Positions 18,947-38,983 of a DNA stretch of 38,983 nucleotides are shown here, one piece after another (position 1 is the stretch's first letter; every line of letters starts with the position of its first letter). Made by a program: the position numbers and the translations under genes. The DNA is from a virus. Location of the stretch: positions 1 to 38,983 of the IMG/VR virus record IMGVR_UViG_3300044647_001317; one strand, given 5' to 3'. A model generated the notes under the pieces. It had not been told where the DNA came from, did no database searches, and saw nothing but the letters and a program-made list of their open reading frames with translations.

Positions 18947-19216
18947 ATGACCGCAGTCACACAGACAGCCCAACAGCGTTTCACGCTGCCGCGCATCTTC
19001 TGGACGGATCATTTCGAGCGGTGCGCCGAACACCCCGGCGTTCGCGTCGTCGTCAAGGAAACGGCGAACTACGTGACCGTAGACCTCGATGCGGTCGCCT
19101 TGGCCGACCTCACGTCGGACGCCAAGCACTATGCAGACGAGGGGGTTGATGGGCCGCACACACGCCGCCTTTGCCGCTCTGCTCGCATGGTGCTTTGGGC
19201 ACTCGGCAACCCCTAA
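18947..19216 (+). CDS. Hypothetical protein, first gene of the rightward early operon
   Basis: An 89-residue protein starting MTAVTQTAQQRFTLPRIFWT. The middle is beta-rich (GVRVVVKETANYVTVDLDAV) and the end helical. A strong GGAGGAGGACAGA site precedes the ATG. It resembles small unknown proteins of alphaproteobacterial phages. First gene after the composite control site, so likely expressed early. Confidence 0.75.
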   Translation: MTAVTQTAQQRFTLPRIFWTDHFERCAEHPGVRVVVKETANYVTVDLDAVALADLTSDAKHYADEGVDGPHTRRLCRSARMVLWALGNP

Positions 19217-19241
19217 CCACACCCCGACAGGAGGACAGCAG
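19212..19241 (+). repeat. Repeated intergenic ribosome-binding leader, copy 1
   Basis: The stop-to-start spacer CCTAACCACACCCCGACAGG then AGGACAGCAG is nearly identical to 20483-20509. Both copies begin at the TAA of one gene and end at the ATG of the next. A shorter related leader (ACCCGGAGGAGGACAGA) precedes 18947. Confidence 0.7.
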
Positions 19242-19403
19242 ATGGACATCGACCGCGCCGAATATTTGGCAGGATACCTTGCAGGAACGGGAGCCGTTCC
19301 GGTTCGCATCTACTACGCGAACCACGAGCCGCACTATGCGCGCGGGCTGCAGGCTGGCTTTGCCGCTGCGTGGTGCGGCGTCGATCTGTCGGCGTGCGTC
19401 TGA
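19242..19403 (+). CDS. Small hypothetical protein (53 aa)
   Basis: A 53-residue protein, MDIDRAEYLAGYLAGTGAVP at the start, with conserved-looking Tyr/Gly-rich helix and a final AGFAAAWCGVDLSACV. The ATG follows the repeated GACAGGAGGACAG leader, and its stop overlaps the next ATG (TGATG). First gene of the leader-bracketed cassette. Unknown function. Confidence 0.68.
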   Translation: MDIDRAEYLAGYLAGTGAVPVRIYYANHEPHYARGLQAGFAAAWCGVDLSACV

Positions 19404-19639
19404 TGAGTGCCCCCGTCATTATGGAGACAGTGCCCGACACCGCCACGCGCAAGGTGCGGCAGGGCAAGCGGGTTATCGGCTTTATCACCTATTTTCCCGC
19501 GATCCCGTCAATCGGTCGCGTTGAAGGCTGGACCTTCATCCCGAACCGCAAGGACATCGCCAACCGCTACGCCGCGCCGTCACCCGTCTTTGACGATCCG
19601 AAGGCGGCGCTGCGTGACATCAACGAGAAGCTCGCTTGA
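19403..19639 (+). CDS. Small hypothetical protein (78 aa)
   Basis: A 78-residue protein opening MSAPVIMETVPDTATRKVRQ, with a beta-rich middle (GFITYFPAIPSIGRVEGWTF) and a charged helical end. It starts in the TGATG overlap with the upstream gene and ends in a TGATG overlap with the methyltransferase. Function unknown. Confidence 0.72.
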   Translation: MSAPVIMETVPDTATRKVRQGKRVIGFITYFPAIPSIGRVEGWTFIPNRKDIANRYAAPSPVFDDPKAALRDINEKLA

Positions 19640-20487
19640 TGCGCGTGCTGGACCTCTTCAGCGGCATTGGCGGATTCAGCCTCGGGCTTGAGCGCGCGGG
19701 AATGACCACGGTCGCGTTCTGCGAGATTGAAGAATACCCGCGCCGCGTGCTGGCAAAGCACTGGCCGCATGTCCCCATCCATCGTGACGTTAGAGAGTTG
19801 AAGGGCGCGGATGTCGGAGCAGTTGACGTTATTTGCGGCGGCTTCCCCTGCCAAGATATCTCCGTTGCTGGCAAAGGCGCGGGGCTCGCGGGTGAGCGCA
19901 GCGGCCTCTGGGTCGAGTACGCCCGTCTCGTTGGCGAGCTTCGCCCCCGCTACGTCATCGTGGAGAATGTCGCCGCGCTTCTCGGGCGAGGCATCGGAAC
20001 CGTTCTCGGGGACTTGGCCGCGCTCGGGTATGACGCGGAGTGGCACTGCATATCCGCAGCCAGTGTTGGCGCACCGCACCTCCGCGAGCGGATCTGGATT
20101 GTGGCCTACCCCGGCCGTGATGATGACGCGGGAGGATTGGACCCGAGAGCGTCTGGAAGAGAAGCGGGCCGAGGTGAAGGCCGCGACCTTGGCAAAGGGC
20201 AAGCACCATACAGGCAACGGCTTCGGATTGAACTTGGCGCAAGCCGTCCGTTTCTGGCCGACGCCGACGACGCAAGACGCATCGAACAACGGCCCGCCAT
20301 CACAGATGAGAAGGAACACCAAGCCGCTGAATGCGGAGGTTGGTGGAGCGTTGAACCCGACGTGGGTCGAGTGGCTCATGGGGTTCCCGCTCGGGTGGAC
20401 CGACTGCGGGGACTCGGCAACGCGGTCGTCCCGCAAATCCCGGAAATCATCGGCCGCGCGATCCTAGCGGCTGAAGCCAACGCCTAA
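19639..20487 (+). CDS. C5-cytosine DNA methyltransferase (Dcm-like)
   Basis: A 282-residue cytosine-5 methyltransferase. Motif I DLFSGIGGFS (5-14), catalytic PCQ in GGFPCQDIS (70-72), ENV (109-111), motif VIII LRERIW (148-153) and motif X GNAVVPQ (260-266). All are intact, so it should be active. The target-recognition region between motifs VIII and X is short (about 105 residues), Asp/Arg/Glu-rich and unusual. From 19811 to 20467 the same DNA has a second uninterrupted open frame. The start ATG follows TGA by overlap; the preceding TTG is less likely. Likely protects the phage DNA from restriction. Confidence 0.93.
   Translation: MRVLDLFSGIGGFSLGLERAGMTTVAFCEIEEYPRRVLAKHWPHVPIHRDVRELKGADVGAVDVICGGFPCQDISVAGKGAGLAGERSGLWVEYARLVGELRPRYVIVENVAALLGRGIGTVLGDLAALGYDAEWHCISAASVGAPHLRERIWIVAYPGRDDDAGGLDPRASGREAGRGEGRDLGKGQAPYRQRLRIELGASRPFLADADDARRIEQRPAITDEKEHQAAECGGWWSVEPDVGRVAHGVPARVDRLRGLGNAVVPQIPEIIGRAILAAEANA
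19811..20467 (+). CDS. Overlapping frame in the methyltransferase gene: LWPTP/NPxWVEWLMGFP-type protein
   Basis: A 218-residue frame, +1 relative to the methyltransferase, fully nested in it. It opens MSEQLTLFAAASPAKISPLL after an AAGGGCG site. It contains ATSSWRMSPRFSG and FSGTWPRSGMTRSGTAYPQP, a doubled W-P-T-P motif (LWPTPAV, FWPTPTTQDA) and NPTWVEWLMGFPLGWTDC. I recognise this order of motifs from proteins annotated next to, or as part of, phage cytosine methyltransferases. Gene callers often choose between the two frames; here both look like conserved families. Expression of this frame is not shown, so the call is tentative. Confidence 0.45.
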   Translation: MSEQLTLFAAASPAKISPLLAKARGSRVSAAASGSSTPVSLASFAPATSSWRMSPRFSGEASEPFSGTWPRSGMTRSGTAYPQPVLAHRTSASGSGLWPTPAVMMTREDWTRERLEEKRAEVKAATLAKGKHHTGNGFGLNLAQAVRFWPTPTTQDASNNGPPSQMRRNTKPLNAEVGGALNPTWVEWLMGFPLGWTDCGDSATRSSRKSRKSSAARS

Positions 20488-20509
20488 CCACACCCGACAG
20501 GAGGACAGA
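20483..20509 (+). repeat. Repeated intergenic ribosome-binding leader, copy 2
   Basis: Near-identical to 19212-19241 (one C fewer and a slightly shorter end). The two copies bracket the three-gene segment holding the methyltransferase. Confidence 0.7.
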
Positions 20510-20734
20510 ATGACCAACAAGACCTTCAGCGTAAAGCGCGAGAACCGCCCCGGCATCCACGTCACCGGGTTTCCGAAAGACGGGCACCCGTCGTTCATCA
20601 ACATCAAGTTTGGCGACACCGGGCAGAACGGCGAGTTCCAGGTCCTGCTCTACATGGCCGACGCCTGCGCCCTCGCCATCGCTCTGGAGAACGCCATCAA
20701 CCACGCCGAGCCGCGCGCCGTGGAGGCCGCGTGA
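20510..20734 (+). CDS. Small hypothetical protein (74 aa)
   Basis: A 74-residue protein, MTNKTFSVKRENRPGIHVTG at the start, with a strand FINIKFGDTGQNGEFQVLLY and a short helix ACALAIALENAIN. It begins after the second copy of the GACAGGAGGACAG leader and overlaps the next gene by one base (TGATG). No family recognised. Confidence 0.7.
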   Translation: MTNKTFSVKRENRPGIHVTGFPKDGHPSFINIKFGDTGQNGEFQVLLYMADACALAIALENAINHAEPRAVEAA

Positions 20735-22065: not shown

Positions 22066-22824
22066 ATGGATACCATCATGACCCACGAAATGGCGGCGAA
22101 AGTCGAAACCCCGCAGAGCCGTTCGCGCGAACTAGACAAACTCGCCGCCGCGCTCGCCAAGGCACAGGGCGAGATCGAGGGCGCGATCAAGGACAAGAGC
22201 AACCCGGCCTTCCGCAGCAAGTATGCCGACCTGGGCGCGGTTTGGGATGCCATCCGCGAGCCGTTCTCCAAGAATGGCTTGTCGGTCGTCCAGTTCCCCC
22301 GCCGCGATGGCAACTCGGTCGAAGTCGAGACGATCCTTCTGCACTCATCCGGCCAGTGGATGAGCGGCACTTTCTCGGTTCCGACCGCGAAGCAGGACGC
22401 GCACGGGTTCGGATCGGCAACGACCTATGCCCGCCGATTCTCCCTGTCCGCCGTATGCGGCGTCGCCCCGGTGGACGATGACGGCAACGCGGCTGCGGGC
22501 AAGGCGAACACGCACATTCCCACCAGCACTCACCCCAGCGACTTTGCAGACGAGGCGCGCCGGGACGGGCTCACCACTGAGACGCGCAGCACCTATCAAG
22601 TCGCCAAGGACAAGAAGAGCGAGGCGGCTGCGAAGCAGTGGGCGGACTTGGCAATTCAGACGCTCAACTTTGCGCAGTCCATTGCGGATCTGGACGGATG
22701 GTCGGATGAACCGAAAAACGCGGCGTACATGGACAGGCTGTCGGATAACTACCCCGACCAGCACCAGCGGGTGCAGGACGCGCTCGACAATGCCCGGCTG
22801 TCTCTTCGCGACAGGGCAGCATAA
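22066..22824 (+). CDS. ERF-family single-strand annealing protein
   Basis: A 252-residue protein of the ERF (P22 Erf-like) annealing family: KLAAALAKAQGEIEGAIKDK, then NPAFRSKYADLGAVWDAIRE and PFSKNGLSVVQFP, and the glycine-rich GSATTYARRFSLSAVCGVAP motif. It anneals complementary single strands in phage recombination and often circularises permuted ends, fitting a headful-packaging phage. A GGAGGAGTGA site precedes the ATG. NinB-like and HNH genes follow. Confidence 0.9.
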   Translation: MDTIMTHEMAAKVETPQSRSRELDKLAAALAKAQGEIEGAIKDKSNPAFRSKYADLGAVWDAIREPFSKNGLSVVQFPRRDGNSVEVETILLHSSGQWMSGTFSVPTAKQDAHGFGSATTYARRFSLSAVCGVAPVDDDGNAAAGKANTHIPTSTHPSDFADEARRDGLTTETRSTYQVAKDKKSEAAAKQWADLAIQTLNFAQSIADLDGWSDEPKNAAYMDRLSDNYPDQHQRVQDALDNARLSLRDRAA

Positions 22825-38178: not shown

Positions 38179-38983
38179 CGCGGCAACGGCTTGATTTTGG
38201 TCCGCATCCCGTAGAAGGCACGGCGCACCGGGTCCGATATGGAAATCTCAACCGTCCGCTGCCGGAAGGCGCCGAGCCGGTCCCACATGGCGCGAATATA
38301 GCGGACACCCTGCCGGCCAAGGCTCGCGCGCCGTTCGTGGCTCCAACTGAAGCCGCCGTTGTCGCTGTAGCGCATCATGACCTCGGGGTCGGCCCCCTGC
38401 CCAGAGATCGCGCCGACGCCCAGCTCGCACTCAAGCTCGAAGTCCACCATGATTGCCCGCAGCGTCTCGGCATAGAATGGCAGGCCGACAATCACGGACC
38501 GGATGGGCTCGCCCAAGTCGGTGTAGGTATCGAGGTCTAGTTCCGCGACCTTGCCAGCCTGCAAGCCTGCAAGCGTCTTGCCGAAGGCGCTGAAGATGCA
38601 CTGCACGTCCCACTTGGCAGGCTCAATGGACGTGCCCGACTGCCGCTCATGCCAGATGGGCGCCCCAGCCGCTGCGGAGGCCGCAGGATCGAAAACAAAG
38701 GTCCGGTTGAGGCTCGGCAGGGTCAGGACGTAGAAGTGATGTCCAGCCTGGAAATACGTCATCCCGTAGGCGTCCGACACGGTGCCGACGCGAAGCACTT
38801 CCTCGATGGCGTGTGTCGAGATACGCGCGGGCTGGTAGCCTTCGGCGCGGTACACAATCCGATCATCGCCCAGCCAGAATACGGAGTTGTCCATCTTGGC
38901 GGGGCTGCGACGGGCCGCGCATCCACGCTCCAGCAAGGCGCCCGGCACGCGCTCGAAGGGAAAAGGCGACGCGCCGGTATTGG
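38175..38983 (-). CDS. P22 gp10-like packaged DNA stabilization protein, C-terminal part
   Basis: C-terminal part of the gene whose start is at base 740 on the other contig end; bases 38857-38983 duplicate 1-127. It encodes the second half of the protein, including the region reading AGHHFYVLTLPSLNRTFVFD that is typical of P22 gp10-type tail factors. The stop overlaps the start of the following 89-residue gene by four bases (38175-38178), which indicates translational coupling. No homologue of the P22 needle gp26, which follows gp10 in P22, is found next. Confidence 0.88.
   Translation of the reverse strand, partial: NTGASPFPFERVPGALLERGCAARRSPAKMDNSVFWLGDDRIVYRAEGYQPARISTHAIEEVLRVGTVSDAYGMTYFQAGHHFYVLTLPSLNRTFVFDPAASAAAGAPIWHERQSGTSIEPAKWDVQCIFSAFGKTLAGLQAGKVAELDLDTYTDLGEPIRSVIVGLPFYAETLRAIMVDFELECELGVGAISGQGADPEVMMRYSDNGGFSWSHERRASLGRQGVRYIRAMWDRLGAFRQRTVEISISDPVRRAFYGMRTKIKPLPR
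38857..38983. repeat. Terminal overlap of circular contig (right copy)
   Basis: Exact copy of bases 1-127. Removing one copy closes the map to about 38,856 bp and restores the gp10-type gene. Read-through of a single intact frame across the join is direct evidence that the ends are adjacent in the real molecule. Confidence 0.95.

Follow-up and report, generated by a model that had tools for sequence, protein, structure and literature searches.

M.EcoHK31I, which recognises YGGCCR, and M.AquI (CYCGRG) are both two-polypeptide C5-cytosine methyltransferases, and the gene for the small subunit of M.EcoHK31I lies within the large-subunit gene in another reading frame. Phage methyltransferases with multiple targets are also described in the literature. 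In M.EcoHK31I, motifs I-VIII and X are found on the large subunit, to which the predicted target-recognition domain (TRD) has also been assigned, and motif IX is found on the small polypeptide; M.AquI is split after motif VIII, with motifs IX and X both on its small subunit (PMC3404938). When M.SssI and M.HhaI are cut after motif VIII, ahead of the recognition domain, the fragments come together again as active enzymes (PMC3404938, PMC3439449); these artificial splits are engineered and non-overprinted, unlike the pair described here.

The window analysed here, a viral DNA stretch of 38,983 nt, holds a C5-cytosine methyltransferase gene, alpha, with a second gene, beta, nested within it in the +1 frame (Table 1). 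Alpha is clearly homologous to M.HhaI and M.HaeIII over motifs I-VIII, whereas these enzymes are single chains with motifs ordered I-X and without a nested gene. The division of motifs in the window (I-VIII and X versus IX) is the same as in M.EcoHK31I, as is the out-of-frame nesting of the small-subunit gene within that of the large subunit, and the window therefore likely belongs to the EcoHK31I-type split enzymes, likened by motif division and not by sequence alignment. Unlike in M.AquI, motif X remains on alpha. The window may depart from M.EcoHK31I in the location of the recognition region, which codon-position rates put mainly in beta, both frames being variable there. M.EcoHK31I is part of a restriction-modification system, whereas no restriction partner was seen among the genes nearest the window's methyltransferase. 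A search of the open-licence literature found no papers on this phage overlap. The PHROG families of alpha (PHROG_363) and beta (PHROG_1008) are both named 'DNA methyltransferase', and the description of the latter gives this generic name only, with neither subunit role nor overlap. What is new is that the EcoHK31I-like arrangement constitutes a large, old and mostly unannotated phage family; published relatives make the kind itself known.

We propose, with high confidence, that the two genes encode the overprinted subunits of a heterodimeric DNA cytosine-5 methyltransferase, predicted to be an obligate pair working like M.EcoHK31I. Alpha would provide AdoMet binding and catalysis through motifs I-VIII, together with motif X, and beta, whose translation would begin at a separate start codon within alpha, would contribute the target-recognition region, motif IX and an extra N-terminal domain without known family. 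One mRNA would yield both proteins, and the assembled, active enzyme would methylate phage DNA, most likely for evasion of host restriction. The sequences themselves show the dual coding, the complementary motifs and the fused or re-split versions in relatives; expression of both chains, their physical association, the activity, a recognition site and the biological role are predictions.

Table 1. Coordinates of the proposed overlapping subunit genes and their features in the window
Feature	Position	Strand	Basis
Proposed alpha subunit, C5-cytosine methyltransferase, 282 aa; motifs I-VIII and X	19639..20487	+	ATG; Pfam, PHROG, M.HhaI alignment
Proposed beta subunit, 218 aa, +1 frame inside alpha, ATG start	19811..20467	+	PHROG_1008, homologues, constraint
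Shine-Dalgarno-like GAAGG, 6 nt 5' of beta ATG	19800..19804	+	Sequence; homologue starts
Alpha-only 5' part, internal control; alpha third-position substitution rate ~0.34	19639..19810	+	
Alpha motif IV Pro-Cys-Gln, catalytic cysteine; invariant in family alignment	19846..19854	+	Translation, alignment
Beta constrained core, about residues 28-200	19894..20412	+	Codon-position substitution rates
Alpha motif VIII region (LRERIW), final block 5' of the variable region	20080..20097	+	
Beta first WPTP; start of the putative modular target-recognition region	20102..20113	+	
Variable region; alpha frame poorly conserved, constraint tilts to beta frame	20113..20334	+	Substitutions peak at beta third positions
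Beta second WPTP module	20255..20266	+	
Beta assigned motif IX, LNPTWVEWLMGFPLGW; alpha-frame reading of the same bases within VEPDVGRVAHGVPARVDRL	20351..20398	+	
Alpha motif X, LGNAVVPQ	20413..20436	+	Translation, alignment, M.HhaI profile

Division of the conserved motifs between the two chains

Alpha, for which a TTG at 19636 is an alternative start, matches PHROG_363 along its length (E = 1.7e-89) and Pfam DNA_methylase over residues 1-157 only (E = 2.3e-43). It carries PCQ, ENV and motif X, and alignment of the alpha family profile with M.HhaI covers 12-179 (motifs I-VIII) and, weakly, 296-319 (motif X), with nothing between VIII and X, where motif IX and the TRD are absent. The original prediction had credited this frame with all core motifs, among which motif IX is in fact missing, and had placed the overlap over motifs VIII to X, whereas it starts just upstream of motif IV (PCQ). 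The peptides it quoted, a doubled WPTP and NPTWVEWLMGFPLGWTDC, are indeed present in beta, and the low-complexity look of alpha's recognition region would be explained by the recognition half being encoded in beta. It had been suggested that beta might assist or modulate the methyltransferase; an indispensable subunit that supplies the target-recognition/motif IX half of the enzyme is the likelier role.

Beta, which matches PHROG_1008 (E = 5e-29) and no family in Pfam or NCBIfam, is laid out as an N-terminal domain followed by the variable target-recognition region and motif IX, to which we assign NPTWVEWLMGFPLGW, the motif absent from alpha. The 5' neighbour of motif IX is a variable region in which (W/L)PTP modules recur and which probably behaves as the target-recognition region: WPTP occurs at beta residues 98-101 and 149-152, homologous betas usually carry two (W/L)PTP units and up to five, and several relatives show tandem duplications there. 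By analogy with multi-target phage methyltransferases, we infer that these units could be recognition modules.

The C-terminal block of beta, LNPxWVEWLMGFPxGW, matches an in-frame segment of single-chain methyltransferases of mycobacteriophages (hhalign, 96.8%). An AlphaFold2 model of beta alone was poor (mean pLDDT 63.5) and gave no useful structural match in Foldseek; a subunit dependent on its partner could be expected to model poorly, though this does not count as evidence for one. Searched against the PDB sequences of solved structures, the beta profile gave no hit, and the small-domain assignment is therefore based on sequence, on the order of the motifs and on the fusions. A profile of the C-terminal IX-X part of the single chains gave only weak matches in the PDB, among them plant DRM2 (E about 1.1) where the IX-X part of DRM2 is expected, an alignment whose relevance is suggestive only. 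The QLTLF at the start of beta was considered as a sliding-clamp-binding motif and rejected, as QLxLF occurs in 20 of 126 homologues and is dictated by the codons of alpha VDVI.

Fused and re-split relatives

The loci are in large majority purely nested in the +1 frame (245 of 283), and 30 more combine nested and in-frame parts. In mycobacteriophage single chains, the beta-type block stands in frame directly 5' of QLRxxGNGVVPQQ (motif X); in one of these chains the Pfam DNA_methylase alignment extends to position 313 of the 324 in the profile, and the AlphaFold2 model of another is confident in both the catalytic domain and the IX-X end and matches M.HhaI structures. A different order is found in three Alteromonas and Vibrio plasmids (L317, L319, L320), where motifs I-VIII and X are followed in frame by a C-terminal beta-like TRD/IX domain. 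The match of this domain is strong in Vibrio (E = 1e-6, Z = 10,000), where traces of the beta N-terminal part are seen as well, and weak but consistent in the Alteromonas proteins (0.006 and 0.03); in the two fusion plasmids checked, the nested +1 frame is closed by many stops. No further fused alpha-beta chains were matched in viral contigs. Finally, in Arthrobacter and some Mycobacterium phages (L001, L006, L194, L197, L198), members of this family are split in the manner of M.AquI, after motif VIII, with IX and X on a second ORF. The simplest reading of these varied architectures is a single enzyme whose parts are allotted to chains in different ways.

A subunit role for beta is to be weighed against the reading in which it is a separate modulator, or a phage anti-restriction or regulatory protein, that overlaps the methyltransferase by happenstance. 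Such a protein could account for the N-terminal domain without known family and for the mycobacteriophages (L173-L202) in which the N-terminal half of beta persists as a nested +1 ORF, yet the TRD/IX half is fused in frame to alpha. Against it count the motif absent from alpha that beta supplies, the two distinct modes of fusion between alpha and beta-like parts, and the location of nearly all betas found within alpha genes; we consider this reading improbable, and retain that of a heterodimer with overprinted subunits.

Both reading frames of the overlap are under selection

The gene is GC-rich, and the length of the +1 ORF in the window alone therefore proves nothing: shuffling of alpha's synonymous codons gave ORFs as long or longer in 11.5% of trials (P = 0.115), and permutation of codon order gave P = 0.074. 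Across 129 distinct homologues, the +1 ORF has a mean length of 249 aa where 120 aa are expected; no excess is seen in the +2 frame (65 observed, 70 expected). A homologous +1-frame beta is present in 80/80 viral loci retrieved with alpha as query, and thus chosen by alpha alone and not by beta, as well as in every alpha-selected phage inspected, which include phages of Sulfitobacter, Mycobacterium, Synechococcus, Salmonella, Microcystis, Lacticaseibacillus and Porphyromonas hosts and environmental phages; phages with the pair include some whose alpha is only about 33% identical to that of the window. In all 126 homologues examined for it, the expected zone contains a start codon in the beta frame, SD-preceded in 108, compared with 21 SD-preceded starts in the +2 frame, a comparison confounded by the +2 frame being open less often. 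The record of Paenibacillus phage Shelly annotates beta as 'g55 internal gene'.

To separate the two frames, the protein of one was held fixed while synonymous codons were shuffled, 60 times per homologue. Beta similarity exceeded that of all 60 alpha-preserving shuffles in 131/131 homologues, and conversely alpha similarity exceeded that of all 60 beta-fixing shuffles, again in 131/131. The rate at alpha third positions, measured over 49 independent pairs, is 0.46 in the alpha-only part, drops to 0.21 within the overlap, reaches 0.18 in the motif IX/pre-X stretch and is back to 0.45 past the beta core (sign tests, P < 1e-7). Mapped along the gene, alpha third positions are free 5' of beta, progressively lower from about 19894, lowest at 19984-20028, still low at 20335-20412 and less restrained from 20413 onwards. 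Within the variable region, substitutions are fastest at alpha first positions, equivalent to beta third (P about 5e-4, 49 independent pairs), a sign that selection there acts on the beta frame; the preference is modest and both frames diverge quickly. The first 25 residues of beta and its tail past GWTD are weakly constrained, and the exact beta start is therefore uncertain.

The overlap is thus genuine, with selection acting on each of its frames. The original prediction of a true overprinted pair is borne out by the presence of beta in the alpha-selected loci and by the constraint on both frames, and the refutation test that accompanied it (relatives that break one frame, or constraint in a single frame) was run and did not refute dual coding. 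The ATG with a Shine-Dalgarno-like site before it is likewise found as described, and the other option that the prediction offered, that one frame explains records of the other, is rejected.

Programmed frameshifting, by which N-terminal alpha would be linked to beta in one long enzyme with beta not an independent protein, finds some echo in the relatives split after motif VIII and in the single-chain forms. A full enzyme would, however, need two shifts, one into beta for TRD-IX and one back into alpha for X, and start codons with SD-like sites are common among homologues. Furthermore, beta is already constrained at 19894-20112, upstream of any useful shift site and well before the end of motif VIII, so that its own initiation, and not frameshifting alone, best explains it; we regard this alternative as very unlikely. 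Least credible of all, to the point of being negligible, is that alpha alone is functional and that the +1 ORF arises passively from GC-rich codon usage and the conserved motifs of alpha: the non-significant ORF length in the window and the codon-forced QLTLF start would suit it, but it is refuted by the shuffle test and by synonymous sites in alpha that are depressed exactly along beta and recover past its core, and the fusions keep beta-like domains outside the overlap.

Distribution and genomic setting

When genomes of bacteria and archaea were scanned with a profile, 80 loci were recovered, nearly all nested +1, in many phyla and including an archaeal MAG, and a Methanomethylovorans plasmid carries an alpha/beta pair. 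In one class, beta was found in 15 of 289 sampled genomes, mostly nested. We lean towards the view that the heterodimeric enzyme descends as an ancient overprinted pair, with recognition and catalysis in two frames, modules duplicated within the overlap and an architecture repeatedly changed (nested, re-split, fused in two orders), and that it is spread over phages and replicons of Proteobacteria, Actinobacteria, Firmicutes, Bacteroidota, Cyanobacteria and Archaea.

Beta is mostly unannotated, and phage methyltransferases of this type may therefore be cloned, named or called inactive as single genes with half of the enzyme missing. Because the limits of this same-strand overprinting are finely mapped and fused relatives serve as natural controls, the pair is also suited to the study of how overlapping genes remain functional together, and the many C5-methyltransferases that the family offers in naturally split form could interest designers of targeted methylation tools. 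As functional proxies, the m5C enzymes with relaxed specificity from Paracoccus and Sinorhizobium prophages were considered and rejected, being about 700 aa long and of a different group.

Both frames of one E. coli prophage copy are interrupted by a stop, the two lying close together, and the annotation lists this copy as a pseudogene. One Roseovarius MAG chromosome has five methyltransferase loci with identical scores (L205-L209), which represent either a multicopy prophage or an assembly artefact.

The window's methyltransferase sits in an early replication/recombination region; an ERF-family single-strand annealing protein is encoded at 22069-22821 (E = 8e-21), about 1.6 kb downstream. An exact 127-nt terminal direct repeat (1-127 = 38857-38983) suggests that the genome is complete, circular or terminally redundant. 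The methyltransferase is flanked by near-identical leaders, CCTAACCACACCC(C)GACAGGAGGACAG, at 19213-19243 and 20483-20510, which lie 5' of genes starting at 19243 and 20510 and differ solely by one inserted C.
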